Positions 2,751 through 41,230 of a DNA stretch of 64,000 nucleotides are shown here, piece after piece (the first letter of the stretch is position 1; the number at the start of each line of letters is the position of its first letter). Source of the DNA: Tangfeifania diversioriginum (GTDB taxonomy: Bacteria; Bacteroidota; Bacteroidia; Bacteroidales; Prolixibacteraceae); NCBI GenBank assembly GCA_945873105.1, contig CAMCBW010000015.1, positions 1 to 64,000 of the forward strand, in the 5' to 3' direction. Under the pieces are notes generated by a model. That model saw only the letters and a list, made by a program, of their open reading frames with translations, made no database searches and had not been told where the DNA came from. Both the position numbers and the translations under genes were made by a program.

Positions 2751-2757
2751 TCTAACA

Positions 2758-9173: not shown

Positions 9174-9758
9174 TTGAGAATATTTCCGGAGGATATTGAA
9201 TTGGTGCCAAAGCTCCAGAAAGGGGAGGTAGAGGCTTTCGACCTGGTATATGCCAAATATGCCGGGAAGCTCTATGGGTTTGCGTTCAAATACCTCAAAT
9301 CAAAAGCTGAAACGGAAGAGCTGGTTCAGTCGGTCTTTCTCAAGGTATGGGAAAACCACAAAACCCTCCGCAAAGAATCTTCCTTCAAATCCTACCTTTT
9401 CACCATCGCCTACAACGAAATCTGCAACAGTTTCAGGCGAAGAGTCCACCTGCAAAAGTTTATAGGGGTGCAACAGCTCGAGAATTCCAATGCCTCCAGC
9501 GATACCGAAGAACTGATCAATTACCATTCCACTTTGGAGCAACTCCAAGAGATTATTGCCAAACTCCCGGAACGGCAACGCACCATTTTCCTGAAAAGCA
9601 GGCAGGAGGGAAAAACGAACAAGGAAATTGCCACTGAACTTGGTATCTCCTCCGGAACAGTTGACAATTACATCTCGGAATCCCTGAAATTTATCCGGAC
9701 CCATTTGCAGGACAAAAATTTTTCATTGTTGCTGCTGTTCTCGCTCTTTTTGTCGTAA
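9174..9758 (+). CDS. RNA polymerase ECF-type sigma-70 factor
   Basis: Region 2 (FDLVYAKYAGKLYGFAFKYLKSKAETEELVQSVFLKVWEN) and region 4 (LPERQRTIFLKSRQEGKTNKEIATELGIS). TTG start. Confidence 0.93.
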   Translation: MRIFPEDIELVPKLQKGEVEAFDLVYAKYAGKLYGFAFKYLKSKAETEELVQSVFLKVWENHKTLRKESSFKSYLFTIAYNEICNSFRRRVHLQKFIGVQQLENSNASSDTEELINYHSTLEQLQEIIAKLPERQRTIFLKSRQEGKTNKEIATELGISSGTVDNYISESLKFIRTHLQDKNFSLLLLFSLFLS

Positions 9759-10204: not shown

Positions 10205-11275
10205 ATGCTGAATCACACAGAAATAGATCAAATCGAAAAATACATCAGCGGTACCGCTGATGCCAAGGAAATGGCATTCGTTGAATCCCTTTTTTCGCAT
10301 GGAGCGGAGAATGATGGGTTACGCAACCAGCTCAAAGCGGATTGGGAGGGAGATCCCCAGAAGGATATTCCCTCCGATGAAATCCTTAATGGCCTGCTAG
10401 ACCGTGTCCATCACCTGATCAGAAACAAGGAAGATCAAAAACGAAAACTTTTGGCCTACCGCATCGTTCGTACCTTTAGCAGGGTAGCGGCAACACTTTT
10501 CCTTCCTTTGCTCCTTGCAGGCGGTCTGACGATCGGATATTTGATGCAATCACCGGAAAAAACAATCGAGCAGTCGGTTAGCTCGGTGATCCATGCACCA
10601 ATGGGATCCCGGGTCTCCTTCAATCTGCCAGATGGTACCAAAGGCTGGCTCAACAGTGGCTCCAGCCTGACCCATTCCTTCCCTTTCAACAGCAATAGAA
10701 ATGTGGCACTCAATGGAGAAGCATGGTTCGATGTAACGCCCGACCAGCAACATCCTTTTGAAATCAGTGCCGGTAAATCAAAAGTTAAGGTTCTGGGCAC
10801 CAGTTTTAACGTAAGTGCTTACCAGGATGCTCAATACATAGAAGTGGTACTTCAGCAGGGGAAGGTGGAATTCTACCAGAATAATTCGGCAGAAAAGATA
10901 ACCATGGCTCCTTCTCAAAAGCTGGTCTGCAGCAACGGGAAAGTGGAAGTATCTGCTACCGATCCATCCAAATACGAAGCCTGGACGGAGGGCAAACTGG
11001 TATTCAGGGGCGACAACATGGCCGAAGTGGCCAGGAGGATCGAACGCTGGTACAATGTAAAGGTGGTGCTGGCCGACAAAGACCTTGAAAACTACTCTTT
11101 CCGGGCCACTTTCGAGGATGACTCGCTCGAAGAGGTGATGCGGCTGCTTAGCTTAACTTCACCCATCGATTACAAAATAGCGCCGCGTGTCACGAAACCG
11201 GATGGAACCATCGGGAAAGTGGTTGTTTCGTTGTACAAAAGAGTTGGCAGGAAAAGCAATAACCCTAAAATATAA
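10205..11275 (+). CDS. FecR-family anti-sigma factor
   Basis: Single TM; APMGSRVSFNLPDGTKGWLNSGS, GEAWFDVTPDQQHPFEI, VKVLGTSFNV. Confidence 0.94.
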   Translation: MLNHTEIDQIEKYISGTADAKEMAFVESLFSHGAENDGLRNQLKADWEGDPQKDIPSDEILNGLLDRVHHLIRNKEDQKRKLLAYRIVRTFSRVAATLFLPLLLAGGLTIGYLMQSPEKTIEQSVSSVIHAPMGSRVSFNLPDGTKGWLNSGSSLTHSFPFNSNRNVALNGEAWFDVTPDQQHPFEISAGKSKVKVLGTSFNVSAYQDAQYIEVVLQQGKVEFYQNNSAEKITMAPSQKLVCSNGKVEVSATDPSKYEAWTEGKLVFRGDNMAEVARRIERWYNVKVVLADKDLENYSFRATFEDDSLEEVMRLLSLTSPIDYKIAPRVTKPDGTIGKVVVSLYKRVGRKSNNPKI

Positions 11276-11391: not shown

Positions 11392-14300
11392 ATGAAAAAA
11401 AATTATTCAGACTGGGGAGAGCTCTGCCTATCCCTGAAAAAAACACTACTCATTATGCGCATTGCTCTTGTTCTTTTGCTCGTCGGTTTTCTGCAAACCC
11501 ATGCAAACGATGCCTATGCCCAGAAAACCAGACTTTCGGTCAGCTTTACCAATACTCAATTGGCAAAAGTGCTTGATCAGATTGAAAACAAGAGCGAGTT
11601 TTTCTTTCTCTACAACGAAAAGCTGATTGATGCCAACCGCAAGGTCTCCATAGAGGCCAAGGATGAGCAGATTGATGAAATCCTAAAAATACTATTTATT
11701 GGAACTGATATAGAGTACATTATTACAGACCGTAAGATCATTCTGGCTCCTTCAAACATTTCTGAATCACAGCTGATTGGTAAAAAAGTATCGGGGAAAG
11801 TCACTGACGCTTCAGGAGCTACTCTACCTGGGGTTTCGGTTGTGGTGAAAGGAACCGCCAATGGGGTGATAACTGACAATGATGGACTATTTTCGTTGGC
11901 CAATGTTCCTGAAAATGCAACTTTGCAATTTTCATTTGTTGGGATGAAAGGGATAGAGGTTGCGGTAGGAGGAAAGACAACTCTAAAGGTTATTTTAGAA
12001 GAGGAATATATAGGAATAGGCGAAGTAGTTGCTGTTGGCTATGGTACTGCGAAAAAAGTAAATCTCACAGGAGCGATTTCAACTGTAAACCTGAAAGAAG
12101 TTGAGAACCGCCCAATTACTAATTCGACACAAGCGTTGCAAGGGGTTTCCGGAGTATATGTAAACCAAGCTGGTGGCCAACCGGGGAAAGATGCTGCGAC
12201 TATACGTGTACGTGGACAGGGGACCCTAAACAACAATGATCCGTTAGTCCTTGTGGATGGTATTGAGTTTCCGCTGTCGGCTGTAAATCCCAATGACATT
12301 GAAAGCATTTCTGTATTAAAGGATGCTGCATCAGCATCCATTTATGGGAATAGGGCTGCAAACGGCGTCATTCTGGTAACTACCAAACAGGGGTCTCAGA
12401 ATGTATTAAAAATCGAGTACAGCAATTATATGGGATTCCAAAGGGTGAATTACCTTCCTAATCTGGTTAAAGACCCGGTTGAATATATGAAATTGAGAAA
12501 CCAGGCTCAAAAAAACGCTGGAAGATTAGTTGTAGATTATACAGATGCAACTATTACAGAATATGAAAAAGGGCGTCTGACCAATCCGTATGTGTATCCT
12601 TCAAACGATTGGTTGGATATTATGTTCAACGATGCACCGATTCAGGAACACAATTTGCGCTTTTCAGGAGGCAAGGATAAAGTCAGTTATACTTTGTCGG
12701 TTGGTTATCAGAATCAGGATGGGGTATTAATGGGTTCCAGCAGCAATCAGCTGTCAGTAAGGTCAAACGTGAATTTTCAGTTGAGGGATTGGATCAAGAT
12801 TGGGTCAGATTTTTCAACCATGTACCGATATATCCATGAACCGGCAACGACTGCTGCTCAAATGATGTCAATAGTTTTTAAAGCACAGGGGTTTCACCCT
12901 ACTTACTTGGAAGATGGACGTTATGCAAATGTGTGGGTAAGAACGCCCGGACATAATGTATATAGGCATCCACTTGTATGGGCAAAGGAAGGATACCTGA
13001 ATAACAAAACCAACAGAATGCTGATGAGTATTTACACGGAAATTAAGCTTCCTTATGGCATTAACTATTTAGCAAAAGCAGGTGCGAATAAATATGATGG
13101 ATTTCAAGAGCAGTTTGTTCCGGATATTTACATGTACCAGGTAAAGACGCTGGAGGCTTCGCGAGTGGATTTTACTACGTCAAACAAGAACAGACATGTG
13201 ACCAACCAGGATGACAATAATCTGAATATCACATTATTTAACACATTGTCGTGGAATAAAACATTTGCAGAAAAACATAATTTTAAAGCTTTGCTAGGAG
13301 GCAGTTATGAGAGTTTTTCAACACGCTATTTCAGTGGTACTATCGAAGGTTTTCTAGGGAACTCTCTCCACGAACTTAATGCAGGATCGACTAATCCAAG
13401 TGTTTCCGGCAGCTCCGCAGCCAATTATCTCATTGGATATTTTGGAAGGATTAATTACGATTTTTTGCAGAAATATTTGTTTGAGGCCAATTTTCGTTAT
13501 GATGGTTCTTCAAAATTTGCAGAAGGGAATCGCTGGGGATTCTTCCCTTCATTTTCAGCTGGATGGAGGATGGATCAAGAAGGTTTCATGAAAGATCAGA
13601 AATGGATTTCTTTACTTAAACTAAGAGCTTCTTACGGGGGGCTGGGAAATGAACAGATAGGCGACTTCAAATATGTGAACATGATGGACTTCAATAAAGA
13701 GTACCTGTTCGGGGGAGTAGTAAATCCTGGTGTTGCGATAAGTTCATACAATGATCCAAACATCACATGGGAAACAACAACAATTGCCAACCTCGGTCTT
13801 GATGCAAATTTTTTCAATAACAGGTTAAATTTCAATTTTGAAGTCTATGACAAACAGACCACTAACATTTTACGCCAGGTTAACCTCCCTTCCCAGATAG
13901 GGAATCTGGCGGGTCCGATAATGAACATCGGGACTGTTGACAATAAAGGTTATGAGCTCAGTGTGGGATATCAAAATAATATAGGGTCGTTCAAATATAA
14001 AGTGGATGCAGGTGTGAATTACAATACCAACCAGGTAAAAGAGCTAGATGATCAGGTCATTTATAATGGTAAATATATCACGAAAGAAGATTACTCAATC
14101 GACTCTTATTATTTGCTTGATGCAATTGGAATTTTTCAGTCAAAAGAAGAGATAGCTTCCAGCCCATTTCAGAATATTACCACCAAACCCGGGTATCTGA
14201 AATACAAAGACCAAAACGGTGATAAAGTTATTAATCAGAATGATCGGGTGATTACCGGCGGAGTTATTCCCAAATACAATTATGATTTGACTTTCAACCT

Positions 14301-14754
14301 ATCGTATAAAAATTGGGCGGTGACTGCTTTTATCCAGGGTGTACAAGGGATCAAAACATATCCTGAAGGAATGGTGGCCACCCCTTTCTGGTTTGGTACT
14401 TCTGTTACTAAGGATTGGGTGAACGATTCATGGACACCCGAGCGCCCGGATGCGAAATTGCCTATAATGACCACATATGAGGATTCTCAAAATGACAATT
14501 TTATGTTATCTGATTTTTGGCTGCTGGATGCATCATTCTTGAGGCTGAAAAATCTCCAGTTCTCTTATGATGTGCCTAAAACCTTTATTTCGAAGATTGG
14601 TATAAAAAACCTGCTGCTTTTTGTAAATGGACAAAATATATTTACAATTTCGAAAATGAAAGATTTTGATCCGGAAAGGAATATTAAACAAGGAGATTAT
14701 TTCGAATACCCATCTGTGAAAACTTATACTGCTGGGCTAAATGTTTCATTTTAA
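11392..14754 (+). CDS. susC-like: SusC/RagA-type TonB-linked outer membrane transporter with N-terminal STN domain
   Basis: STN domain, carboxypeptidase-like GKVTDASGATLPGVSVVVKGT, plug DPLVLVDGIEFPLSAVNPNDIESISVLKDAASASIYGNRAANGVILVTTK. Confidence 0.96.
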   Translation: MKKNYSDWGELCLSLKKTLLIMRIALVLLLVGFLQTHANDAYAQKTRLSVSFTNTQLAKVLDQIENKSEFFFLYNEKLIDANRKVSIEAKDEQIDEILKILFIGTDIEYIITDRKIILAPSNISESQLIGKKVSGKVTDASGATLPGVSVVVKGTANGVITDNDGLFSLANVPENATLQFSFVGMKGIEVAVGGKTTLKVILEEEYIGIGEVVAVGYGTAKKVNLTGAISTVNLKEVENRPITNSTQALQGVSGVYVNQAGGQPGKDAATIRVRGQGTLNNNDPLVLVDGIEFPLSAVNPNDIESISVLKDAASASIYGNRAANGVILVTTKQGSQNVLKIEYSNYMGFQRVNYLPNLVKDPVEYMKLRNQAQKNAGRLVVDYTDATITEYEKGRLTNPYVYPSNDWLDIMFNDAPIQEHNLRFSGGKDKVSYTLSVGYQNQDGVLMGSSSNQLSVRSNVNFQLRDWIKIGSDFSTMYRYIHEPATTAAQMMSIVFKAQGFHPTYLEDGRYANVWVRTPGHNVYRHPLVWAKEGYLNNKTNRMLMSIYTEIKLPYGINYLAKAGANKYDGFQEQFVPDIYMYQVKTLEASRVDFTTSNKNRHVTNQDDNNLNITLFNTLSWNKTFAEKHNFKALLGGSYESFSTRYFSGTIEGFLGNSLHELNAGSTNPSVSGSSAANYLIGYFGRINYDFLQKYLFEANFRYDGSSKFAEGNRWGFFPSFSAGWRMDQEGFMKDQKWISLLKLRASYGGLGNEQIGDFKYVNMMDFNKEYLFGGVVNPGVAISSYNDPNITWETTTIANLGLDANFFNNRLNFNFEVYDKQTTNILRQVNLPSQIGNLAGPIMNIGTVDNKGYELSVGYQNNIGSFKYKVDAGVNYNTNQVKELDDQVIYNGKYITKEDYSIDSYYLLDAIGIFQSKEEIASSPFQNITTKPGYLKYKDQNGDKVINQNDRVITGGVIPKYNYDLTFNLSYKNWAVTAFIQGVQGIKTYPEGMVATPFWFGTSVTKDWVNDSWTPERPDAKLPIMTTYEDSQNDNFMLSDFWLLDASFLRLKNLQFSYDVPKTFISKIGIKNLLLFVNGQNIFTISKMKDFDPERNIKQGDYFEYPSVKTYTAGLNVSF

Positions 14755-14766: not shown

Positions 14767-16263
14767 ATGAAAAAAATATATTTATTCCTATTTATTGTCG
14801 GATTGATTTCATGTGATTCAATGTTGGAAGTGAACCCATCGGACAAATACAGTACAGCTACTTTCTGGGCTGATGAAGAACAATACAATGCGGCGCTTAC
14901 TGGCTGTTACAATAATTTTTATAACTCACTTGTCTTCTTTAATGGTGAAACTGAAATGATCACCCCAAATTCCAAGGCCTATAATGAAACCAATGGGACC
15001 GACGGAATCGCTAAAGGTTCTGCATTTTCGACTACAGCCCTTTTTTCTTTATTTTGGAAAAATTCCTACCAGGGGATAGGAAGATGCAATACTTTACTCG
15101 ACAATTTGGAAAAGGCTACTTTTACTGAGGCCAAAAAGAATCAGATGAAGGGTGAAACGCTTTTCCTCAGGGCGTTGAACTACTCCTACCTGATGAATCA
15201 TTTTGGAGGATGTCCACTCATTATACACACTCCGGATAATGATACTCAGGGACAACTTCCGCGAAACTCAGCTACAGAGGTGTTAGTTCAAATCATTGCT
15301 GATTTAGACCAGGCAGCCACCTTCCTTCCATCCAGTTATGCCGGTACACTGAATAAAGGTAGAGCAACAAAAGGGGCCGCTCTTGCACTGAAAGCCAGGA
15401 TGCTTTTGTATAATGAAAGATGGGCTGAAGCTGCAGTAGCCGCCAAGGCAGTAATAGATCTGGGTGTTTTCGATTTATTCCCTGATTACAGGGGGATGTA
15501 CTTGCTGAATAACGAAAACAACAAAGAGATTATTTTTGACATCCAGTACACAGCCCCGTATCGTAAACATGATTTGGACAATGCAATAGCAACTCTCAAC
15601 CGTCCCGCTCCATTGAAAAGCCTGGTCGATGCGTATTTAATGACAGATGGTAAACCTATAAATGAATCGCCTTTATATAATCCAGCTAAACCTTACGAAA
15701 ACAGGGATCCGCGATTGCTTCAAACTGTTGTTTGCATAGGATACCCCTATAACGGCAAAATTACGACGCTTTCAGATGTTGTAACTACCGGTTTTGGGAG
15801 CAAAAAACTTACCACTTTCAGCGACAATACAAAAATATCAGTAACAGTCGGCAACTCAGAAGTGAATCCAATTGTAATCAGATATGGTGAGGTTTTGGTA
15901 ACTTATGCTGAAGCATTAAATGAATCCAATCCTGCTCCAAATTCTGAAGTATACTGGGCACTCAACAAGATCAGGACGAGACCAACTGTAAACATGCCCG
16001 AATTACTGTCAGGCTTGACCAAAGAAAAGATGAGGGAAACTATAAGGTTGGAGAGGCGGATAGAACTGGCAATGGAAGGTCATTATTATATGGACATTAA
16101 ACGATGGAAGATCGCGGAAGTTGTCAATAATGGAGTCATATATAATTATCAGGGAGTGGCAATTGATAAAAGGGCTTTCAATATTAACCGTGATTATCTA
16201 TGGGCAATACCGGAAGTTGAGATTCAGGAGAACACAAATCTGAAACAAAATCCCGGTTGGTAA
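14767..16263 (+). CDS. susD-like: SusD/RagB-type outer membrane lipoprotein
   Basis: Lipobox LISCDSMLEV; LFLRALNYSYLMNHFGGCPL; C-terminal SusD region RRIELAMEGHYYMDIKRW. Confidence 0.95.
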   Translation: MKKIYLFLFIVGLISCDSMLEVNPSDKYSTATFWADEEQYNAALTGCYNNFYNSLVFFNGETEMITPNSKAYNETNGTDGIAKGSAFSTTALFSLFWKNSYQGIGRCNTLLDNLEKATFTEAKKNQMKGETLFLRALNYSYLMNHFGGCPLIIHTPDNDTQGQLPRNSATEVLVQIIADLDQAATFLPSSYAGTLNKGRATKGAALALKARMLLYNERWAEAAVAAKAVIDLGVFDLFPDYRGMYLLNNENNKEIIFDIQYTAPYRKHDLDNAIATLNRPAPLKSLVDAYLMTDGKPINESPLYNPAKPYENRDPRLLQTVVCIGYPYNGKITTLSDVVTTGFGSKKLTTFSDNTKISVTVGNSEVNPIVIRYGEVLVTYAEALNESNPAPNSEVYWALNKIRTRPTVNMPELLSGLTKEKMRETIRLERRIELAMEGHYYMDIKRWKIAEVVNNGVIYNYQGVAIDKRAFNINRDYLWAIPEVEIQENTNLKQNPGW

Positions 16264-16274
16264 CATTTAAATAA

Positions 16275-17599
16275 GGGAGGTTCTATAAATTAATATTTTG
16301 ATATTCAGATATATAATGCTATCTTAGCAATACAGAAAACAAAGTTAGCTATTCTATGGGCAAGATGTATAAATCACAGGGTAAAAAGGGTTTGTTCGAT
16401 GAACATTTTTCAACCGCACACCTTACTACCATGGGTAATCTGCTGGAATCAATCAGTAAAGTAATTGATTTTGAAATGTTTAGATCAACCCTTGAAGCCA
16501 GACTTCTGAATACGTCAAAGAAGACCAATGCAGGAGCCAAACCATTTGATGTTTTGATGATGTTTAAATCCTGATACTTCAGCGCTATTACAACCTTGGT
16601 GACAGACAGGTTGAATATCAAATCGTTGATCGGACGAGCTTCAAAAAATTCTTAGGGCTTGAGACTGGCGATAAAGTTCCGGACGAAAAGACAGTTTGGT
16701 CATTTCGTGAGCGGCTTACCCAGTCAGGCACTGTAGAAGATTTATTTGAGCTGTTTGTCTTTCATCTGCAACAAAAGGGATTGATGTTCAATGAAGGCCA
16801 GATCATTGATGCCAGTTTTACCGAGATTCCCCGCCAGCGCAATACCCGGGAAGAAAACAAGATAATCAAGGACGATTGTGGCGATGACCTTTGGAAAGAC
16901 CAGCCCAATAAGAAGTGCCATAAAGATATTGATGCCCGCTGGACCAAGAAGAACGGCGATACATTCTACGGATACAAAAACCATGTTAAGGTTGATGCTA
17001 AAAGCAAAATTATTGGAACATACTATGTGACAGATGCTTCCGTACATGATTCACAAGTATTGGACTCATTGCTAATTGAAAAGGACGAGGGTCAGGAGCT
17101 TTTTGCTGATAGTGCATATACCGGATAAGAGCTGGAAAATACTGTTTCAGAACACGGTATGATAAACAAGATTCACGAAAAAGGTTACAAAAACAAACCA
17201 CTAACAGAAGAGCAAATAGCAAACAATAATTTGAAATCAAAGACAAGGGTACGTGTTGAACACATCTTTGGATTTATGGAGCGGAGTATGAACGGTATGT
17301 ATATCTGGTCAGTTGGGATGCCCCGAGCCACTGCGATAATTGGCCTAATGAATTTGACTTACAATATTTTTAGGTACGAACAATTGATGAGATAATGAAA
17401 TAATCTGAATATCAATACAATAAAATAAGTGGAAACCTAATAAATAATCAAACGGCACACATTTTCAGAATCTTGGAGCAATTCCTTCTAGCGATTTTTC
17501 GATCAAATTAATCGAGCTGTGATTGAATCAACCAAGGTCGGAAATTATGCCGCCCCCATTTTTAAAGTTTTTCAAAAAAATCAATTTTTAGAACCTCCC
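16275..17599 (+). mobile_element. Decayed IS5-like insertion sequence, about 1325 bp, with TIRs and 3-bp TSD
   Basis: Left GGGAGGTTCTATAAATTAATATTTTGA, right (reverse complement) GGGAGGTTCTAAAAATTGATTTTTTTGA, flanked by TAA on both sides. Contains a disrupted DDE transposase. Confidence 0.85.
16356..17395 (+). pseudogene. IS5-family transposase, two disabling mutations
   Basis: N-part MGKMYKSQGKKGLFDEHF... frameshifts at tttaaa|tcctg (16565-16574). Core NEGQIIDASFTEIPRQRNTREEN ends at SAYTG* (TAA 17126-17128). Reading continues in frame ELENTVSEHGMINKI...RVEHIFGFMERSM. Confidence 0.88.
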
Positions 17600-17620
17600 T
17601 AAAATTAACATTGAATAAAC

Positions 17621-18913
17621 ATGAACAGAAGGACATTTCTCAGAAATTCTGGTATTGCAGTTACGGGTGCGTCAATTGTGCCATTGAATTTCGGATGTGG
17701 CAGAAAACATCCGAATGATCTGATAACTATTGGGATGATTGGCGTTGGATCTCAAGGGGTTGAGCGTAATTTAAGACATTATCTTAAATACCCTGAATTG
17801 TGCCGCGTTGTTGCCGTTTGTGATGTTAGTATGGTAAGGGCAACAAGTGCAATGAACTTGGTCAATAATACGTATAAATCAAAAGATTGTGCTATATATC
17901 AGGATTTCAGGGAACTTCTGGAAGACAAAACAATCGATGCCGTTCAAATCTCAACCCCGGACCATTGGCATGTCCCTATCACCATTATGGCGGCCTTAAA
18001 AGGGAAACATGTTTGTTGCGAAAAACCAACATTGACAATCGATGAGGGTCGTTTATTGTGCAACGTTATCAAAAAGACAGGGGTCGTTTATCAGGTTTCA
18101 ATTGAAGACCGGTTTTTGTCTCCTTATCACCAAATGGCTGAAGTAGCTTTAAATGGAAGGTTGGGAGCTTTGAAACATATTGAAATTTCGCTTCCTGTGA
18201 CGCAATTGCCCAAAGAAGGTCTTGAAGTAATGACCCCACCAAAAGATCTTGACTATGATTTATGGCTTGGTCCGGCACCGGAAATTCCGTTTATCTATTC
18301 ACGTACTTTTTACCATTTCAGATGGTATGATGCCTATTCAGGTGGTTTACTTACAGACTGGGGTGCACACTATTGCGATACAGCACAATTAGTTACAGGG
18401 AATGAACTTTCGGGGCCGACTGAGGTATCACCTGTTGGGGAGACACTTTATTATAATGATGGCATTTTCAACACTGCTTATAATTTTGATTTACACTATA
18501 AATATGCCAATAATGTTACCATGAGGGTTAAAAGTGGTAACGCTTCAATCCGGCTTGAAGGCGAAGAAGCCTGGGTTGAAACGGTTGGCTGGAATAGAAA
18601 ACCTGTTGCCAGCAACGAGAAGATTTTGGATTTAACGGAGAAGAAAATCTCCTTACCTACAGCAAATGATGAATTTATTGATTTTCTTCAAAGCATAAAG
18701 GACGGAAGAACAGCAATTTACAGCGCCGAATCTGGTCATCGGACCAGTTCGCTTTTACATTTTGGAAATATTGCTTTAAAACTCAACCATAAGTTAGAAT
18801 GGAATCCTCAGGCTGAAATTTTTGTTAACAACCTTGAAGCCGAGAAATTGAGAAAAAGGGAGATGCGCGAGAAATGGAGTTACAGCAAAATTTGTCCGGA
18901 ATACAATTATTAG
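17621..18913 (+). CDS. Gfo/Idh/MocA oxidoreductase, Tat/lipoprotein-type export signal
   Basis: MNRRTFLRNSGIAVTGASIVPLNFGC; Rossmann GMIGVGSQG; CEKPTLT; DWGAHYCD. Confidence 0.9.
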   Translation: MNRRTFLRNSGIAVTGASIVPLNFGCGRKHPNDLITIGMIGVGSQGVERNLRHYLKYPELCRVVAVCDVSMVRATSAMNLVNNTYKSKDCAIYQDFRELLEDKTIDAVQISTPDHWHVPITIMAALKGKHVCCEKPTLTIDEGRLLCNVIKKTGVVYQVSIEDRFLSPYHQMAEVALNGRLGALKHIEISLPVTQLPKEGLEVMTPPKDLDYDLWLGPAPEIPFIYSRTFYHFRWYDAYSGGLLTDWGAHYCDTAQLVTGNELSGPTEVSPVGETLYYNDGIFNTAYNFDLHYKYANNVTMRVKSGNASIRLEGEEAWVETVGWNRKPVASNEKILDLTEKKISLPTANDEFIDFLQSIKDGRTAIYSAESGHRTSSLLHFGNIALKLNHKLEWNPQAEIFVNNLEAEKLRKREMREKWSYSKICPEYNY

Positions 18914-19272
18914 CTGCAACTAAGGAATACAAGTAATATTTAATTATATAGCTTGTCCCGAGAATCGGGAAACATCATTTTTACAAAGCCGACTGGGAAG
19001 AGCTTGATAGGCTCATCGGGCAGCATAAAAACAAAGAAAGGAAGATATTATGATAAACCCGGGGATTTATGGGCGAGGTACGTTCTATTAGCTCAAAAAA
19101 GGAAAAACAGAGGGCATTTTATGCCCTAAAGACAAAGGGTGAAAAATATTTTTGACTGGAGTTAAACCAAATTGGCCACGATTAAATAGCCTTTGTTCAA
19201 ATATCGGATGAATTCCGGTTCAAAAAATTCAATTTGGATTTTTAAATATCAATAAATTAAAATTTAAAGAAT

Positions 19273-20625
19273 ATGAACCAAAATTTTTCAAGAAGACATT
19301 TTATCAGAAATGCATCCATAGGGATTTCGGGTGCTATTGTCGTTCCAACTATTTTATCCTCATGTGCCAAAGGCGCCAACGACCGGATTTTAATCGGTCA
19401 TATTGGAGTCGGTTCAAGGGGAACGACGGAACTGCTGAATTATTTTCTTCCTCTCAGGGAAGCGAACAATATTGCCGTATGTGATGTGTTTAGAGACAAA
19501 CGGGAAAAAGCTGCCGAATACATTAACAATTTCTATAAAGAGAACAAGGTTAAGTCCGATCCATGTTTGGTTTATTCTGATTATGAAGAGCTTTTACAGA
19601 ATAAGGAAATTGATGCTGTGCATATCACCACTCCTGATCACTGGCATATTCAAATGGCCATCAAAGCTGCGCGTGCCGGGAAACATATAATGCTGGCAAA
19701 ACCTCTTGGATTGAGTTATCCGGAGTATAAGATATTGATTAAAGAATTGAATAAAAACGATGTACGCTTCCATTACGGGCCACAACAGCGTACATATGAT
19801 CATTTAAAGCTTGGCTATGATATTATCCGTGATGGGAAAATCGGGGAGATTGAGCGGGTGGATGTATGGGCTCCGGAAGGGCAGTCTGTCTCCCCGCCTT
19901 GCAACGAAGCCAGTGTGCCGGATGATCTGGACTACGAAAGATGGATAGGCCCTGCTCCCATGCGGCCTTATTGTCCGGAGCGCACAAAAAACCTTGGTTC
20001 ATGGTTCATCAATGATTACAGTATCGGATGGCTGGCAGGCTGGGGTGCACATCCGCTGGATATCATGGTCTGGATAGTAAAGGAAAAGGTCAAAGGGGGA
20101 TATACCGTCACTGGAACCGGCAAAATCCCCCCTTCCGGAAGTCTTTTTGATACGGTTTATTCCTGGGATGTTGCCTTTGCCTACCGGAATGGATTTGATT
20201 TACATTTTTCCAGCTTTGAAGTCGCCCGGCAGAATGGCATGATAGGTAACCGCAAGGTTGAAGAATCCAATGGTACAACGTTTTATGGCAGCAAAGGGTG
20301 GATCTCTTTAAGCCGTAGATCGGCAGAGTCAAATATTTCTGAAATACATGACAAATTGAACAATTTCCCTAAGACCAAAGATGGATATATTTCCAGTGAA
20401 AACAACACAATGGGAAGAAGGTTTATCTCAGTTGTCAGGGAAAAAGAAAAGGAACTTTGTCCCCTTGATGAAGCGATCATATCTGATACAATCAGTCACA
20501 TGGGGAATATCGCCATCCGGACAGGACGTAAAATAACCTGGGACCCGAAGCAAGGACAAGTTGTGGACGATTCCGAAGCAAATAATTTATATTCCAGAGA
20601 GATGAGATCGCCCTACTTGATTTAG
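19273..20625 (+). CDS. Gfo/Idh/MocA oxidoreductase, Tat/lipoprotein-type export signal
   Basis: FSRRHFIRNASIGISGAIVVPTILSSC; GHIGVGSRG; AKPLGLS in the EKP position; GWGAHPLDI. Confidence 0.9.
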   Translation: MNQNFSRRHFIRNASIGISGAIVVPTILSSCAKGANDRILIGHIGVGSRGTTELLNYFLPLREANNIAVCDVFRDKREKAAEYINNFYKENKVKSDPCLVYSDYEELLQNKEIDAVHITTPDHWHIQMAIKAARAGKHIMLAKPLGLSYPEYKILIKELNKNDVRFHYGPQQRTYDHLKLGYDIIRDGKIGEIERVDVWAPEGQSVSPPCNEASVPDDLDYERWIGPAPMRPYCPERTKNLGSWFINDYSIGWLAGWGAHPLDIMVWIVKEKVKGGYTVTGTGKIPPSGSLFDTVYSWDVAFAYRNGFDLHFSSFEVARQNGMIGNRKVEESNGTTFYGSKGWISLSRRSAESNISEIHDKLNNFPKTKDGYISSENNTMGRRFISVVREKEKELCPLDEAIISDTISHMGNIAIRTGRKITWDPKQGQVVDDSEANNLYSREMRSPYLI

Positions 20626-20666
20626 AACAAAATATGTCCAAAATTCAACTATTAAAATTTGTATTC

Positions 20667-21554
20667 ATGAAAAATCTATTAATAGGCCTACTACTCGGAT
20701 TTGTAATAATGGCGAACCCAGTGGCTGCTCAGAAGAAGAAAGTGAATAACATTTTATATGCCCAAAACACTTTAAAAGGTTTCACAAACACTCCTAAAAC
20801 TGCCCGGGAGAAAGCTAAAATATTAAAAACAATTGGTTATGATGGTTTAGAAGGGTTTGGATATGGGGACTTTTTTGAACTTAAAGATGCTCTCGATAAG
20901 GAGGGTTTAAGAATGCCTGTTAATTATGTGGGTCTTACATTCGGGGCAGATGGCAAACTTGGGGATACTTTGGCTGCTGAAATTAAAGAAATGATTCGGG
21001 AGACGGCAAAGGGAGATATAATCTATTTTCATATTCGTAGCCAGAGTTATAAAGTTAAATGTGAAGCGGGCGATGATATTGTTTCTTCGATACTTCGTGA
21101 ACTCTCTGATTATGCAGCATCTTATGGTGTTAAGTTATGTGCATATCCGCATATAAACACTTACTGCGAGACAGTGGCTCATTCCGTAAAACTGGCTAAG
21201 ATGGTGGACCGGAAAAACTATGGTGCTTCCTTGAACCTTTGTCATTTGCTTAAGGTAGAAGGGTCCGAAGGAATTGATGATAAGATAAAGGAGTTTACCC
21301 CATTTTTGTTTGCGGTAAATATATGCGGAGCTGACGATGGAGATACCAAACAAATGGGTTGGGATCGTTTGATTCAACCATTGGGGCAGGGGTCGTTTGA
21401 TACTTATCATTTTATTAAAGTATTGCTGGACAACGGGTACAATGATCCGATCGGGTTGCAATGTTTTAATCTTAAGGGTGATGCTGTTGAAACTTTAACA
21501 CAATCACTGGAAGTCTGGAAGGAATACAAAAAGCGATACGAAGAAGACAGATAA
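20667..21554 (+). CDS. Secreted sugar phosphate isomerase/epimerase-like TIM-barrel protein (AP endonuclease 2 fold)
   Basis: Signal peptide MKNLLIGLLLGFVIMANPVAAQ; KAKILKTIGYDGLEGFGYG; NYGASLNLCHLLKVEG. Confidence 0.85.
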   Translation: MKNLLIGLLLGFVIMANPVAAQKKKVNNILYAQNTLKGFTNTPKTAREKAKILKTIGYDGLEGFGYGDFFELKDALDKEGLRMPVNYVGLTFGADGKLGDTLAAEIKEMIRETAKGDIIYFHIRSQSYKVKCEAGDDIVSSILRELSDYAASYGVKLCAYPHINTYCETVAHSVKLAKMVDRKNYGASLNLCHLLKVEGSEGIDDKIKEFTPFLFAVNICGADDGDTKQMGWDRLIQPLGQGSFDTYHFIKVLLDNGYNDPIGLQCFNLKGDAVETLTQSLEVWKEYKKRYEEDR

Positions 21555-21632
21555 AGATTTTAAAGATTTTTTATTAGAGTTCGATCGGGTAAAATTCTTT
21601 TTAATATTTTTTAATTCTTAAAATACTTTAAT

Positions 21633-22754
21633 ATGGAACCAGGTAACATTGATTTTGCCATAGATCCGGTTATGCCGAAAAATCGGAATTCCAGGATAGG
21701 TTGTATTGGCGCTGGCTTTATTATGGCCGATTGCCATCTTGTGGCTTATAAGGATGCAGGGTTTAATCCTCAGGCAATCACTTCCCTGAGTCTTGATGAA
21801 TCGAAAGCCGTAGCGGCACGCCATAATATTCCCAAAGTATATAAAAACTGGAAAGAATTAATCAGTGATCCTGATATTGAAATTGTGGATATTGCCATAG
21901 CTCCCGATTCACAGTTGGGTGTAATCAGGGAACTAGTGAAACAGAATGATCATATTAAAGGAGTACTATGTCAGAAACCTCTTGCGATGAATTATCAAGA
22001 AGCTCAAATGATAGTTGAGCTATGTGAAGATTCAGGAATAAAACTGAGTGTAAACTCTAATATGCGTTACGATCAATCTATCAGGGCATTGAAAAGTATT
22101 TTAAATCAGAATTTTCTGGGGGAACCTGTTTTGGCAACCATTGAAATGCGGGCAATTCCGCATTGGCAAGATTTTCTTAAAAAATATGACCATTTAGAGA
22201 TCCTCAACATGGGAATCCATCATATAGACACTTTCCGGTACCTTTTTGGAGACCCTGAGAGGGTTACTACCATCACACGACAGGATCCAAGAACTAAATT
22301 TAGCCACATTGACGGCATTTCACAATATACTTTTCAGTATTCCAATGGTTTTATGGCAACAAGTCTAGACGATGTTTGGGCATGGCCCGGTGAAGGGACC
22401 GAAAAGGATATTTATATTAAATGGCGTGTTGAAGGTATGGATGGAATGGCCCAGGGAACTATCGGCTGGCCAAAATATCCCGAGCCAACACCGAGTACAC
22501 TCGAATTTACTTCTAACCATTTCCCGGGAAAATGGATCCGTCCTCATTGGAATAAAGTCTGGTTTCCCGATGCATTTCAGGGTACAATGGCCCAATTGCT
22601 CGTGGCTGTAGAAAAAAACGCCGAACCGGAAATCAGCGGCAAGGATAATTTGGTTACCATGGCAATTATCGATGCATGCTATCAATCCATTAAGGAACAA
22701 CGAACAATATATTTATCAGAAACAATTAAAGCAAATAAGGAGGCTCGATTATGA
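21633..22754 (+). CDS. Gfo/Idh/MocA oxidoreductase, no export signal (predicted cytoplasmic)
   Basis: RIGCIGAGFIMADCHLVAY; CQKPLAMNYQEA; NMGIHHIDTFRYLFG. Confidence 0.9.
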   Translation: MEPGNIDFAIDPVMPKNRNSRIGCIGAGFIMADCHLVAYKDAGFNPQAITSLSLDESKAVAARHNIPKVYKNWKELISDPDIEIVDIAIAPDSQLGVIRELVKQNDHIKGVLCQKPLAMNYQEAQMIVELCEDSGIKLSVNSNMRYDQSIRALKSILNQNFLGEPVLATIEMRAIPHWQDFLKKYDHLEILNMGIHHIDTFRYLFGDPERVTTITRQDPRTKFSHIDGISQYTFQYSNGFMATSLDDVWAWPGEGTEKDIYIKWRVEGMDGMAQGTIGWPKYPEPTPSTLEFTSNHFPGKWIRPHWNKVWFPDAFQGTMAQLLVAVEKNAEPEISGKDNLVTMAIIDACYQSIKEQRTIYLSETIKANKEARL

Positions 22755-23653
22755 TCTCAGTAGGAATTTTCAATGGTTATTTTCCCTATACTTTGGAGGA
22801 ATCGGTAAAAAGAATTAAAGCACTAGGTTTTACTGCTGTTCAGCTTGACCTTTCGTTTAAAGGAATGGATCTTTCATTTGATTCTTTGAACGCTGAAAAG
22901 TGCCATTTCATAAGGGATTATTTTCGCGATGCCAACCTGCCAATTGTGGCGGTCTCAGGTTATACTAATCTCGTTCATCCCAATTTGGTGAGGCGTGAAG
23001 AGAATATCAGAAACCTGAAAACACTATTAAAGTTTGCCCGTGATCTTGGTTCTCCTTACGTAGTCAGTGAAACAGGGACTTTTGACAAAGATAGTGATTG
23101 GGTTTACCATGAAAAAAATGGAACACCTGAAGCTTATGAAACACTTTGTGAAATTGTAGCTGAACTGACGAAATTTGCACATGATAATGGCTCTGTATTT
23201 CTTGTTGAAAATTACGTTAATAACATCATAGGAACGGTTAATCAGTTATTACGGTTATTTTCAGATGTGAATCACCCTGCCCTGGGCTTGCTGATGGATC
23301 CTACAAATTACTTCTCCGATATTAATATTGAGGATGTTGATGGAGAGCTTAACAGAATTTTTAATGCTTTAGGTGATAAAATAAGAATTGCGCATGCAAA
23401 GGATTGTAAACGTGCTGATAACATTGCTGAAAAACATGCCGACATTGATGCAGATGAATCGCATACTTTCAGGGGTGCCGGGTCGGTAGAACTTCCCGCT
23501 CCAGGTCTGGGAATATTAAATTACGACCTCTATTTAAAACGGTTATCTTCAATTCATCCCAATATTCCGATTATCATTGAACATCTCGATGAGGCTGATA
23601 TTCCGAGGGCCAAAAAATTTGTCGATGACAAACTTAAGAAGGCAGGTTGCTAA
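22751..23653 (+). CDS. Sugar phosphate isomerase/epimerase TIM-barrel protein (predicted cytoplasmic)
   Basis: 4-bp overlap with upstream gene; IKALGFTAVQLD; LGLLMDPTNYFSD; RIAHAKDCKR; IIIEHLDEAD. Confidence 0.88.
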   Translation: MISVGIFNGYFPYTLEESVKRIKALGFTAVQLDLSFKGMDLSFDSLNAEKCHFIRDYFRDANLPIVAVSGYTNLVHPNLVRREENIRNLKTLLKFARDLGSPYVVSETGTFDKDSDWVYHEKNGTPEAYETLCEIVAELTKFAHDNGSVFLVENYVNNIIGTVNQLLRLFSDVNHPALGLLMDPTNYFSDINIEDVDGELNRIFNALGDKIRIAHAKDCKRADNIAEKHADIDADESHTFRGAGSVELPAPGLGILNYDLYLKRLSSIHPNIPIIIEHLDEADIPRAKKFVDDKLKKAGC

Positions 23654-23730
23654 ATATTTTAAAAAATCAATTTTTAATGAAAAGGAATAATTATTCATTG
23701 ACGAAATTCATAAAAAGTAAAGATAAATAG

Positions 23731-25098
23731 ATGGAACTAAATATAAAGCGTATAGTCCCTTTTGGTTTGGCAATAACTGCTTGTTTTAATTTGAATGCAT
23801 TAACCACAGATCATAATGTAAAACCAAATGTAATTTTAATCCTGACCGATGATCAGGGTAGTATCGACTTAAATTGTTATGGCGCAAAGGACTTAAAAAC
23901 TCCAAACCTGGACAGATTAGCACAAACAGGGATTCGTTTTTCCCAATTTTATTCGGGATCTTCTGTTTGCTCTCCTTCAAGGGCTTGTTTGCTGACAGGA
24001 AAAACCCCACAAGGTGCAGATCTGACTGCTAATGCTCCTTCTACAAAAGGACTGGCTGGTATGCCAACTGAGCAGGTGACAATTGCTGAAATCTTGAAAA
24101 CCGCGGGTTATAAGACCGGGCATATTGGGAAATGGCACATAGGTTATTCTCCTGAAACAATGCCATTAGGCCAGGGATTCGACTATTCATTTGGCCACAT
24201 GGGGGGTTGTATCGACAACTATTCGCATTTCTTTTACTGGGATGGTCCTAATCGGCATGACTTATGGGAAAACGGTGAAGAAGTATTTGAAGATGGATTA
24301 TATTTCCCCGACCTGATGGTCGAAAAGGCCAGCGAGTATATCAAAAACAATCAAAACAATCCGTTCTTTCTCTATCTGGCTTTTAATACTCCGCATTATC
24401 CATTGCAGCCGACTCAGAAGTGGAGAGAATTTTACAAAGATTTGCCTAGCCCAAGACGCGAATATGCAGGTTTTGTTTCTTCCGCCGACGAGCGTATAGG
24501 AAAGATAATTGATCTTCTGGACAATCTTAAGATGAGAGAAAATACATTGATTGTTTTTCTTTCCGACCAAGGGCATTCCTATGAAGACCGCACTGGTGGT
24601 AGTGGTGGAAATTCCGGGCCCTACAGAGGAGGAAAATTTTCATTGTTCGAAGGAGGTATCCGTGTGCCGGCAATTTTTAATTGGAAAGGGGTCATCCCTG
24701 AAGGAGTTGTCAATAACGAGATATGTATGAGTATGGACATTTTGCCAACTATTGCAGATTTCTGCGGAGTAAAGGAGGTACCGACTGAAGTAGAAGGGAA
24801 AAGTATTAAGTCCGTTATCTTTGAAAATCAGGCATCTGTGCACAAAGTGTCCTATTGGCAACTTGGAAAGCAATGGGCAGTTCGAGCCGGGGATTGGAAA
24901 ATGGTAGGAAATCCGGTTGATCCTTCAACATCAAAAAACAATCTTCATTTTCCTATGGATAATATATTCTTATCAAACCTAAAATCAAATATTTCTGAAT
25001 CAATTAATCTTGCTGAACAATACCCCGAAAAAGTTAAGGAGATGATTGAATTATATCAGGAATGGAAATATGCCAAGGAAGAATATATAACACATTAA
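23731..25098 (+). CDS. Sulfatase (Cys-type formylglycine motif)
   Basis: NVILILTDDQG; CSPSRACLLTGK; GKWHIG. Confidence 0.95.
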   Translation: MELNIKRIVPFGLAITACFNLNALTTDHNVKPNVILILTDDQGSIDLNCYGAKDLKTPNLDRLAQTGIRFSQFYSGSSVCSPSRACLLTGKTPQGADLTANAPSTKGLAGMPTEQVTIAEILKTAGYKTGHIGKWHIGYSPETMPLGQGFDYSFGHMGGCIDNYSHFFYWDGPNRHDLWENGEEVFEDGLYFPDLMVEKASEYIKNNQNNPFFLYLAFNTPHYPLQPTQKWREFYKDLPSPRREYAGFVSSADERIGKIIDLLDNLKMRENTLIVFLSDQGHSYEDRTGGSGGNSGPYRGGKFSLFEGGIRVPAIFNWKGVIPEGVVNNEICMSMDILPTIADFCGVKEVPTEVEGKSIKSVIFENQASVHKVSYWQLGKQWAVRAGDWKMVGNPVDPSTSKNNLHFPMDNIFLSNLKSNISESINLAEQYPEKVKEMIELYQEWKYAKEEYITH

Positions 25099-26997: not shown

Positions 26998-27666
26998 TCA
27001 CTCCCTGCCCGTCAACGCCAGCAAACCATTGATGATCGTCAATGGATGCGCCGGGTTACCGGCAATGTAGAGATCTACCCGGTTATTTTCAAGGAAACTG
27101 CGGTCCAGGGCAGGGGAACCTTCAAAGATGCCGCCGCTGATGGCGTCAGAGCCACACAAGACTACCATCTTCGGATCAGGAGTGGCGTCGTAGCAGATTT
27201 GCAGCGGTTCAGCCATGTTGGCCGTTATCGGACCGGTAATGACAATCCCATCGGCATGGCGGGGGGAGGCAACGAACTCAATCCCGAAACGGCTTAAGTC
27301 GAACTGCACGTTGTTGGCAGCATTGAGTTCCCATTCGCAGCTGTTGTCGCCTCCGGCCGAGACTTGCCGAAGCTTAAGCGAAGAGCCAAACAATAAACTG
27401 AAATTTTTCGGGATAATGGCTTGGTTAACTTCAACAGGTTGGTCTACGCCTTCTCTGATGATCAACCTTTCCCGCTCTGTTTCAAATCCGCAGAGGCTCT
27501 TCCAGACTTGTGCAAAAGCAGTGGAATGTCTTACTACCGTATCCCCCTGCTGGCCCGGGTCTTCGACCCTTGTCTTGCTTTGTAAAAGCAAAAAAATCAA
27601 ATAGTTTTTCAACCCGGTTACCATCGGGTCGACATCTGCAAATGAGGGCAAAATTGCACAAATCAT
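26998..27666 (-). pseudogene. Chimeric fragment of hydrogenase-like large and small subunits (relic of a second Ehr-like locus)
   Basis: GDTVVRHSTAFAQVWKSLCGFETERE matches the large subunit; ERLIIREG...GGDNSCEWELNAANNVQFD...MNGLLALTGRE-type tail matches the small subunit. First ~40 residues come from repeat sequence. Confidence 0.85.
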
Positions 27667-27928: not shown

Positions 27929-28222
27929 ATGAAAATAGTATCACACAAAATACTATTCGATTTTTACCAAAAGTACCATGAGGCTGAAGTGCCATTAAAC
28001 CATTGGTTCAGAACGGCAAAGAGTGCTAAATGGAAGTGTTTTGCCGACATCAAAAAGGATTTTAACAGTGTGGACAGTATCGGCAACCAGAGATACGTAT
28101 TCAATATAAAAGGAAATACCTACAGATTGGTAGTGGTCATTCAATTTTTACATGGCTACATCTATATCAGATTTGTTGGAACTCATGCCGAATATGATAA
28201 AATTGATTGTAAAACAATTTAG
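27929..28222 (+). CDS. higB: HigB-like mRNA interferase toxin
   Basis: FYQKYHEAEVPLNHWFRTAKSAKWKCFADIKKDF...RYVFNIKGNTYRLVVVIQF...IRFVGTHAEYDKI. Confidence 0.88.
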   Translation: MKIVSHKILFDFYQKYHEAEVPLNHWFRTAKSAKWKCFADIKKDFNSVDSIGNQRYVFNIKGNTYRLVVVIQFLHGYIYIRFVGTHAEYDKIDCKTI

Positions 28223-28235
28223 AATCCCATACAAT

Positions 28236-28601
28236 ATGGAAAGAATAATATCAGAAGACGTTTATAAAACCGCATTGGAGAGGATAGAAGAACTTTTGCC
28301 CATGGTCTCAGACAGTACGCCAATATATGACCGAAAAGCCATTGAATTGAAAATTATGTCTGATATAGTGATTGAATATGAGGAGCATCATTTTCCAATT
28401 GGCAAAACTTCGCTGGCAGATGTGGTAAAAATGAGGCTGGAGCAAGAAGCCATGTCACAGCGCGAATTGGCGAAAAAAATAGGCGTTTCTCCCTCCCGTG
28501 TTAGTGAGTATCTTACCGGCAAGAGTGAACCTACCCTAAAAATAGCCCGAAATATCAGTAAAATACTCAACATCGAACCGGCCATTGTTTTAGGTTTATG
28601 A
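28236..28601 (+). CDS. higA: HigA-like HTH antitoxin
   Basis: HTH MSQRELAKKIGVSPSRVSEYLTGKSEPTLKIARNISKIL, immediately after higB. Confidence 0.87.
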   Translation: MERIISEDVYKTALERIEELLPMVSDSTPIYDRKAIELKIMSDIVIEYEEHHFPIGKTSLADVVKMRLEQEAMSQRELAKKIGVSPSRVSEYLTGKSEPTLKIARNISKILNIEPAIVLGL

Positions 28602-32243: not shown

Positions 32244-32337
32244 ACAGACCTGCCGGTCCCAAGAACATTAAAATTTAGTATTCTGCAAGCGAAGTATGGA
32301 TGGAGAAAGAAAAAGACCAACACAAATTTACCATAAA

Positions 32338-38217: not shown

Positions 38218-38219
38218 GT

Positions 38220-39647: not shown

Positions 39648-39665
39648 TGATTTCGGGTGTTTGAA

Positions 39666-40298
39666 TTAATAATCTTTTAAGTTGCTCAGCTGATCCACAT
39701 CCACATCCTTGAAAACGTCCCCAATCTTGTTCATAAAGATGCCCAGGATCAGCACACTGGCAAAAATATCCAGCATGATACCCAGGTTCACCAGGATCGG
39801 CATCTCGTTCCCGATGGCCAGGGAGAGGACAAAAACGCCATTCTCAATCACCATGTATCCCATAACGTGGGTGATGATTTTGCGACGGGTGGCAATCAGG
39901 TACAACCCGAAAAAGAGGGTGGAGAGTGCCACCACGAAGAAGATCTTGTCTAGATGAGTGTCATCAATCATCGTGGCAATCAAAATATTGACAACCACAA
40001 TGGAAGTGGTAATCACCAGTGAAACAAAATTGGGCAGGAAGGGCTCCGCTTCGCGGGTAATATTGTTCCGCTTCAGCAAATAACTCAGGAAAATGGGCAC
40101 TGCCAGTGATTTGAATACAATGGTTTCAAGGAGGATCAAGGTTAGGTTCACCACGCCAATTTCACTCAGCTGAATAAACACGACGAAAAACAACAATACC
40201 CCCTGAAAAGCCAGCACATTGATGTAGGTCATCATTCTGTTGGCAATGGACATATAGAAGAGGGTGATGATAAATACAATCAGGAGTACATGTATCAT
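39666..40298 (-). CDS. HyfE/NuoK-like membrane subunit
   Basis: 210 aa, about 6 TM, MGYMVIENGVFVLSLAIGNEMPILVNLGIMLDIF. Confidence 0.85.
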   Translation of the reverse strand: MIHVLLIVFIITLFYMSIANRMMTYINVLAFQGVLLFFVVFIQLSEIGVVNLTLILLETIVFKSLAVPIFLSYLLKRNNITREAEPFLPNFVSLVITTSIVVVNILIATMIDDTHLDKIFFVVALSTLFFGLYLIATRRKIITHVMGYMVIENGVFVLSLAIGNEMPILVNLGIMLDIFASVLILGIFMNKIGDVFKDVDVDQLSNLKDY

Positions 40299-40322
40299 AA
40301 GTTCCTATTTTATTTGAGATGT

Positions 40323-41228: not shown

Positions 41229-41230
41229 GG

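Follow-up and report, generated by a model that had tools for sequence, protein, structure and literature searches.

A SusC–SusD–sulfatase uptake locus of Tangfeifania diversioriginum may have gained, downstream of susD and ahead of the sulfatase gene, a transferable cassette for oxidative sugar catabolism; we assign this reading a probability of roughly 0.4. The cassette would comprise two oxidoreductase/TIM-barrel pairs, the exported GfoA–TIM1 and the cytoplasmic GfoC–TIM2, with GfoB, a third, exported oxidoreductase, set between GfoA and TIM1. It would work by an oxidise/eliminate/convert scheme across periplasm and cytoplasm and probably breaks down a sugar derivative by oxidation, not hydrolysis. 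Judged from gene order, the cluster is a composite of separate units and not one conserved pathway. Research on non-hydrolytic sugar breakdown via keto intermediates is recent; to our knowledge, most of the TIM-barrel partners involved have no assigned function. The analysis defines two conserved pairs, with no NCBIfam model matched above its cut-off.

Gene content of the locus

The window is a stretch of 64,000 nucleotides (contig CAMCBW010000015.1), in which the following features were located:

9174..9758, + strand: ECF-sigma-like gene, TTG start (open reading frame matched by ORFs upstream of SusC in relatives; family name from the initial annotation)
10205..11275, + strand: FecR-like anti-sigma gene (homologues upstream of SusC in relatives; family name from the initial annotation)
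11392..14754, + strand: SusC TonB-linked outer-membrane transporter (TIGR04056, 929.6 bits)
14767..16263, + strand: SusD glycan-binding lipoprotein (PF07980/PF14322)
16274..17600, no strand: insertion element with broken DDE_Tnp_1 transposase (26-nt terminal inverted repeats, TAA target duplication)
17621..18913, + strand: GfoA, exported Gfo/Idh oxidoreductase (PF01408 + PF19051; RR motif, weak lipobox)
18914..19272, no strand: 359-bp stretch separating GfoA from GfoB, no gene recognised (short segments found again on contig 3)
19273..20625, + strand: GfoB, exported Gfo/Idh oxidoreductase (PF01408 + PF19051; RR motif and LSSC)
20634..21554, + strand: TIM1, Sec-exported xylose-isomerase-like TIM barrel (PF01261)
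21633..22754, + strand: GfoC, cytoplasmic Gfo/Idh oxidoreductase (PF01408 + PF22725)
22751..23653, + strand: TIM2, cytoplasmic TIM barrel (PF01261)
23731..25098, + strand: SulfA, exported S1-type sulfatase (PF00884, 214 bits; CSPSR maturation motif)

Open reading frames and profile families place every gene of the initial annotation at its coordinates; the insertion element, the 359-bp gene-free stretch and the susD–gfoA distance of 1357 bp had been overlooked. As in SusCD-type polysaccharide utilisation loci, susC adjoins susD (TIGR04056, PF07980), and SulfA carries both the PF00884 domain and the C-x-P/A-x-R motif (CSPSR) of S1-type sulfatases. The PF01261 profile matches TIM1 with 69.6 bits and TIM2 with 93.5 bits (cut-off 31.1). 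The sulfatase is present, and no glycoside hydrolase or polysaccharide lyase was found between positions 9174 and 25098, in agreement with the earlier description. Neither of the two wider spaces hides such a gene: the 1357-bp space is the insertion element, and the 359-bp stretch holds no gene and no Rfam match. GH10/GH43 genes lie outside the unit, at 221–4868 and 32296–33594.

N-terminal signals were read by eye, without a predictor. GfoA and GfoB had been described as Tat/lipoprotein-type proteins; the RR motif is present in both, followed by LSSC in GfoB and by a weak lipobox (FGC) in GfoA. TIM1 has a Sec-type signal, and the signal-less GfoC overlaps the signal-less TIM2 by 4 bp (TIM2 ATG over GfoC stop), both as previously proposed.

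Gfo/Idh genes cluster in this genome beyond chance: of 42, 14 have another one within 5 kb, against a mean of 3.1 and a maximum of 13 in 5000 random draws. Three such genes inside 5 kb turn up in 2.5% of random draws. The same genome has a second cluster of SusCD, Gfo and sulfatase-like genes (L210), and SusCD, sulfatase and Gfo genes also occur together in genome G016 (L081).

A composite of separable units

In two relatives, SusC, SusD and SulfA are contiguous with nothing between them (G037, 59/58/54%; G004, 57/51/52%), so that the Gfo/TIM genes here interrupt a known unit; the direction of insertion, cassette into SusCD–sulfatase, is read from these two relatives only. Conversely, most loci with GfoA–TIM1 or GfoC–TIM2 have neither SusCD nor a sulfatase. 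Two other Bacteroidia contigs unite GfoA with GfoC–TIM2, again without SusCD or sulfatase; GfoA precedes GfoC–TIM2 in both, L093 (which also has TIM1) and L095. The synteny expected by the initial annotation (SusCD, two exported Gfo/Idh, two TIM barrels and sulfatase) was searched for and is absent from the other genomes examined.

These arrangements bear on whether the locus encodes a single two-compartment pathway, dedicated to a sulfated glycoside and working by oxidation, elimination and reduction, in which SusCD import, the sulfatase and the periplasmic and cytosolic couples would all serve the same molecule. In its favour, the genes all point the same way with little space between them except at the insertion element and the 359-bp stretch, susD is connected to gfoA in the empty site, and L210 and L081 pair the same kinds of genes. 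No other examined genome has the full set, however, and because each sub-unit occurs without the others, a conserved sulfatase–oxidoreductase pathway of the kind originally suggested is unsupported; we regard this reading as unlikely. The present locus is the sole support for a possibly sulfated substrate. A two-compartment oxidative sugar pathway as such is plausible, and the present data advise caution with "GH-free" SusCD loci, which may be composites.

The insertion element, a single copy whose transposase is broken by an in-frame stop and a frame change, presently separates susD from the oxidoreductase cassette. Removing the element and its 3-bp target duplication reduces the distance from 1357 bp to only 29 bp, and susD and gfoA therefore probably shared one operon before the insertion. 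Promoter and terminator scans of the locus gave no clear excess over shuffled sequences and do not decide co-transcription. Recent transfer was also considered from composition and rejected, the GC content of the cassette (0.38–0.43) not being set apart.

Two conserved oxidoreductase/TIM-barrel pairs

The exported and signal-less couples singled out by the initial annotation both recur as conserved pairs. GfoC and TIM2 are neighbours in 62 of the 62 loci in which both were called (73 loci in total, from several phyla), within about 200 bp in 59 of them, and GfoC relatives in several phyla are 56–83% identical. None of the 148 related genomes yielded a GfoC–TIM2 relative, and none of 338 genomes of the same class a TIM2 relative. 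The GfoC–TIM2 substrate may vary, since aldose epimerases, DeoC, PfkB, RbsD, ROK and glycyl-radical genes are also found nearby.

GfoA and TIM1 are adjacent in four contigs of the same family (GfoA identity 77–79%); with lower identity or a different gene order they are also found in L022, L023, L024 and L026. L016 has glycosidases and a PF06439 "3-keto-disaccharide hydrolase" protein beside them, and the TIM1 homologues of L023 and L024 carry a C-terminal extension that, by eye, resembles PF06439. The suggested 3-keto chemistry thus gains some support from these two observations; its extension to a sulfated-glycoside pathway as a unit does not. GfoB is missing from the relatives' GfoA–TIM1 pairs. 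It is a widespread separate gene: homologues (41–66% identical) occur in 25 of 148 relatives, and in five of the six closest contexts examined the neighbour is an ORF for a ThuA-domain protein or for one with a ThuA-like beginning.

Recurrent demethylase-like neighbours

In 40 of the 73 loci, GfoC–TIM2 adjoins one of three unrelated demethylase-like enzymes (MocD/E, PhyH or corrinoid URO-D type), which never co-occur there: a fatty-acid desaturase in 21 loci (accompanied in 12 by a Rieske ferredoxin, which passes TIGR02377 MocE in the one case tested), PhyH in 9 and URO-D in 10. The URO-D family is common to the GfoC–TIM2 and GfoA neighbourhoods: the L017 member, beside GfoA, is 44–52% identical to those on the GfoC–TIM2 side and 80% to that of L095. 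Corrinoid methyl-transfer genes surround URO-D in L185 and L186. The present locus itself contains neither a demethylase gene nor a PF06439 gene; a URO-D ortholog (80%) lies away from it in the same genome (C31:26465–27721). Judging from the neighbourhoods in other genomes, the substrate may be O-methylated and lose its methyl group to a separate demethylase; the matching corrinoid-type gene here is the URO-D ortholog just named. A literature search on methyl-inositol or methyl-sugar demethylation genes returned nothing decisive.

Tentatively, GfoC–TIM2 could form a so far undescribed core, shared across phyla, for the catabolism of an O-methylated sugar or cyclitol, served by interchangeable demethylases (MocD/E-type oxygenase, PhyH-type dioxygenase or corrinoid methyltransferase). 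In some Bacteroidota an exported oxidoreductase together with a metal-free TIM-barrel lyase would extend this core, which here would have been loaded into a SusCD/sulfatase locus. The demethylase link yields a concrete and cheap prediction on substrate class.

The same neighbours raise the question of a cyclitol route, in which GfoC–TIM2, and perhaps GfoA–TIM1, would act as dehydrogenase and dehydratase/isomerase on inositol, inosamine or O-methyl-inositol without glycosidic-bond cleavage, as rhizopine mocA/mocC do with mocDEF. It would fit the MocE-family ferredoxin above its curated cut-off and the desaturase-type oxygenase beside GfoC–TIM2 in Paenibacillaceae, the best NCBIfam match of GfoC (inositol 2-dehydrogenase IolG, TIGR04380; 89.7 bits, under the cut-off of 355) and the presence of IolE among the TIM2 fold matches. 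Yet aldose 1-epimerase or DUF4432 genes beside GfoC–TIM2 in Paenibacillaceae and rhizobia point to a reducing sugar, the glycosidases and PF06439 protein near GfoA–TIM1 in L016 fit poorly, and the mocA and mocC genes of rhizopine users are transcribed separately (PMC10107442); this route, too, is rather unlikely. The rhizopine system (mocABC/mocDEF; PMC10107442) resembles the present one in its Gfo/Idh enzyme and in the MocD/E-type oxygenase parts of the Paenibacillaceae relatives, whereas the locus itself lacks such an oxygenase.

TIM-barrel residues and the proposed route

TIM2 keeps all four metal ligands invariant (E153, D183, H215, E277). TIM1, in contrast, has N201, N/S229 and Q276 in place of the ligands D, H and E, and as aligned is without at least three of the usual four; its H173 is invariant and could be catalytic in this family, although TIM1 could also be inactive. 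A PDB sequence search with both barrels returned nothing at E ≤ 0.001. The initial annotation had proposed structure prediction and comparison, which placed the keto-sugar enzymes YcjR and AtHYD among the matches, matches that are generic for the superfamily. For TIM1 (model of moderate confidence, pLDDT 71, two sequences) they include the 3-keto-glucoside 4-epimerase YcjR, with a target-normalised TM-score of 0.70, the highest in the list shown; for TIM2 they include YcjR (0.74), IolE and the 2-hydroxy-3-keto-glucal hydratase AtHYD. The couples might change sugar configuration by oxidation, epimerisation and reduction without cleavage, the barrels being keto-sugar epimerases like E. coli YcjR. 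Epimerases of the YcjR type and related enzymes rely on a metal site, however, which TIM1 lacks, and we consider this improbable.

Under the cassette reading, GfoA (and GfoB), with bound NAD(P), would oxidise a ring hydroxyl, probably at C3, of an imported glycoside or sugar in the periplasm. The keto intermediate would then be the substrate of TIM1, which would use acid/base chemistry without a metal, probably for a beta-elimination via His173. In the cytoplasm, TIM2, with its intact divalent-metal site, and GfoC would finish by rehydration or epimerisation plus reduction or oxidation.

Comparison with known systems

GfoA, GfoB and GfoC score far under every NCBIfam cut-off for characterised enzymes. 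GfoA (124.8 bits) and GfoB (128.0 bits) were rejected as BT2158-type on NF058561 (BT_2158 glycoside 3-dehydrogenase, cut-off 750), and GfoC as IolG or levoglucosan dehydrogenase (NF052479, cut-off 650; GfoA 47.1, GfoB 52.2, GfoC 56.5 bits). As to an assignment of GfoC to rhizopine MocA, a tblastn search in plasmids returned only family-level labels ("Gfo/Idh/MocA family").

A Bacteroides 3-keto-disaccharide system (BT2157/BT2158) has been described (PMC9007349, PMC11300592) and is reportedly also treated by Nasseri et al. in Nature in 2024. The locus shares with it an exported Gfo/Idh of the same broad type in Bacteroidota, with the partial NF058561 match of GfoA and GfoB, and differs in having no PF06439 protein.

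The levoglucosan pathway (LgdA/LgdB1/LgdB2/LgdC) proceeds by oxidation, elimination, hydration and reduction, with a metal-independent LgdB1 and a Mn-dependent LgdB2, both annotated as "sugar phosphate isomerase" (PMC7676230). The likeness lies in its two oxidoreductase steps and its two isomerase-annotated enzymes; unlike the present locus, it is from Bacillus, with no periplasm/cytoplasm split as far as described (PMC7676230).

The Agrobacterium O-glycoside route combines a TIM-barrel eliminase (AtOGE), a hydratase (AtHYD) and a Gfo reductase (PMC10628242), and is resembled here in the match of TIM2 to AtHYD. AtOGE is a Mn enzyme with ligand His132 and catalytic His134 (PMC10628242), to which Y171 and the invariant H173 of TIM1, also two residues apart, may correspond, whereas TIM1 lacks the D, H and E ligands; AtOGE is not among the structure matches shown for TIM1.

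A chance or decaying assembly of separate genes brought together by mobile elements and not working as a unit is very improbable: the broken insertion element between susD and gfoA, the 359-bp gene-free stretch, the placing of GfoB between two genes that adjoin each other in relatives and the disturbed downstream neighbourhood would fit it, but the five enzyme genes are all intact, run in one direction and lie close together, and GfoA, TIM1, GfoC and TIM2 also stand together in L093.

Gene content of the locus and an insertion element within it

Open reading frames and profile matches place all the genes listed in the initial annotation where it had put them, each intact: ECF-sigma-like, FecR-like, SusC and SusD genes are followed by those for GfoA, GfoB, TIM1, GfoC, TIM2 and the sulfatase, all on the plus strand. 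Its description of the locus as GH-free also holds, with no GH or PL gene between the ECF-sigma-like gene and the sulfatase. The observation thus stands, except that it overlooked an insertion element:

16274-17600 (1327 bp), between susD and gfoA: insertion element with 26-nt inverted ends and a TAA target duplication

An in-frame stop and a shift of frame disrupt the DDE_Tnp_1 transposase of this element, and no second copy was found in the same genome. Once its flanks are joined, only 29 bp separate gfoA from the end of susD, an operon-like spacing that makes co-transcription of the two genes before the element arrived probable; scans for promoters and terminators at the locus gave no clear excess over shuffled sequences. 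Directly after the sulfatase lies a convergent HipA-like kinase gene (PF07804 and PF13657; 25193-26422, minus strand), and a Cro-type HTH gene is found at 28152-28601.

The locus is a composite of separable units

The SusCD-oxidoreductase-sulfatase unit is composite: conserved synteny of SusCD, Gfo/TIM-barrel genes and sulfatase, which the initial annotation proposed as a check, is not seen in the relatives examined, where the sub-units occur separately. SusC/SusD orthologues are directly followed by the sulfatase orthologue, uninterrupted by Gfo or TIM genes, in two related genomes, G037 (59/58/54% identity) and G004 (57/51/52%), and three further SusD homologues (47-48%) have a more distant sulfatase at most two genes away. 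In the G037 locus (L078), the closest relative of the SusCD-sulfatase unit, a pair of GH92 genes and one of the endonuclease/phosphatase family come next, a continuation that hints at a mannose-containing glycan.

Genomes of the same family carry GfoA and TIM1 side by side but lack GfoB, SusCD and sulfatase at the pair; TIM1 occurs without an adjoining GfoA in L019-L021 and as a paralogue in the window's own genome (L027), and PF06439, GH78, GH29 and GH97 domains are among the GfoA-TIM1 neighbours in L016. Of the 148 relatives, 25 have a GfoB homologue. Among the six closest contexts, L085-L087, L089 and L090 each show it adjoining an ORF that has a ThuA domain or a ThuA-like N-terminus, the profile scan covering that of L085; the exception is L088, the own-genome copy at a contig start.

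At the thresholds used, relatives of GfoC and TIM2 are absent from the 148 related genomes, and those of TIM2 from 338 genomes of the class. A single scan of a large genome collection, which detects close relatives only, found GfoC relatives (56-83%) in Paenibacillaceae, Clostridia, Treponema, Alphaproteobacteria, Sphingobacteriaceae and a few Bacteroidia contigs; a tree places the window GfoC in a fully supported group with three sequences from Bacteroidia. Both GfoC and TIM2 were called in 62 of 73 loci, and they are neighbours in all 62. Since GfoA-TIM1-GfoC-TIM2 stand in a row without GfoB in L093, and GfoA-GfoC-TIM2 in L095, these four genes form a set, GfoB and the SusCD-sulfatase context being peculiar to the window locus.

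GfoC-TIM2 homologues (51-64%) also occur on Variovorax, Sinorhizobium and Rhizobium plasmids (L169-L171), where their operons include a gene of mutarotase-like or DUF4432 type, an SDR, a CoA transferase and a sugar ABC transporter; the Variovorax operon has a Rieske oxygenase pair besides.

Exchangeable demethylase-like partners of GfoC-TIM2

Of greatest interest is a feature beyond the locus itself: the GfoC-TIM2 pair spans phyla and has demethylase-like partners that replace one another. Three mutually exclusive enzyme kinds occur in GfoC-TIM2 neighbourhoods, where most neighbours were annotated by BLAST clustering and Pfam on representatives: a fatty-acid-desaturase-like membrane protein (21 loci, 12 of them also with a Rieske ferredoxin, one of which was tested and scores over the curated MocE-family cut-off), a PhyH-type dioxygenase with an additional TIM barrel (9 loci) and a URO-D-type protein (10 loci). 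Judging from these neighbourhoods, their shared theme would be O-demethylation. The URO-D adjoining GfoA in L017 is 44-52% identical to the URO-Ds beside GfoC-TIM2 and 80% to that of L095. In L185, a URO-D family member next to GfoA is followed by homologues of an MtaA/CmuA-like protein, a homocysteine S-methyltransferase and a MetH-activation protein; a corrinoid protein is likewise found in L186. The window's own genome holds 16 URO-D-family genes, including the 80% orthologue, unlinked to the locus.

In other GfoC-TIM2 loci, DeoC, PfkB, RbsD, ROK or glycyl-radical genes replace the demethylase-like enzymes. A glycyl-radical-enzyme-like gene, named by eye, lies in four Clostridia and Treponema GfoC loci (L143, L149, L152, L164).

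Barrel residues and proposed mechanism

Across 15 aligned TIM1 homologues, N201 and Q276 do not vary and position 229 holds either N or S; the corresponding IolI residues, D174, E246 and H200, are metal ligands. H173, Y171, E179 and H204 of TIM1 are also invariant. The predicted loss of the first Glu ligand in TIM1 is less sure because the position sits in an alignment gap. TIM2 keeps E153, D183, H215 and E277 in all 38 sequences. Its model is good (pLDDT 93.7), with structure matches including AtHYD and IolE, and that of TIM1 moderate (pLDDT 71), with matches including YcjR and IolI, all generic for the superfamily.

The combination of oxidoreductases with two barrels, of which one lacks the usual metal ligands and the other keeps them, resembles LgdA/B1/B2/C, in which LgdB1 is Mn-independent and LgdB2 requires Mn (PMC7676230), and also the Agrobacterium route (PMC10628242). 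The analogy to both routes is drawn part by part and is not sequence-based; no score of GfoA, GfoB or GfoC against curated models of characterised families reaches the cut-off. By this analogy, the oxidise/eliminate step would take place in the periplasm and the hydrate/reduce step in the cytoplasm, a split suggested by the distribution of signal peptides (signal features were assigned by eye). The pathway proposed initially is thus partly supported: the oxidoreductase-barrel couples are real, the two-compartment logic is plausible, and the link to a sulfated substrate is conjectural.

Other features of the window and genome

A group-4-hydrogenase/complex-I-like set seems split:

26998-27666 and 36721-45261, minus strand: Oxidored_q6; 49-kDa/30-kDa fusion; NADHdh; q2; three Proton_antipo_M proteins

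The Oxidored_q6 gene lies about 9 kb off the rest, separated by unrelated genes (DUF4143 ATPase, sulfatase, GH10, GDSL). Also on the minus strand are a protein with a Peptide-N-glycosidase F C-terminal domain and a Por secretion tail (45487-47394) and an additional Gfo/Idh with a GH109-type C-terminal domain (54759-56204; PF21252, 257 bits). The genome (G000, 5.36 Mb) has 42 Gfo/Idh-domain genes beside those with URO-D domains, and its Gfo genes cluster above chance. On its contig C3, four sulfatase-like genes lie within 14 kb (L214), and short pieces near one of them resemble the 359-bp GfoA-GfoB spacer.
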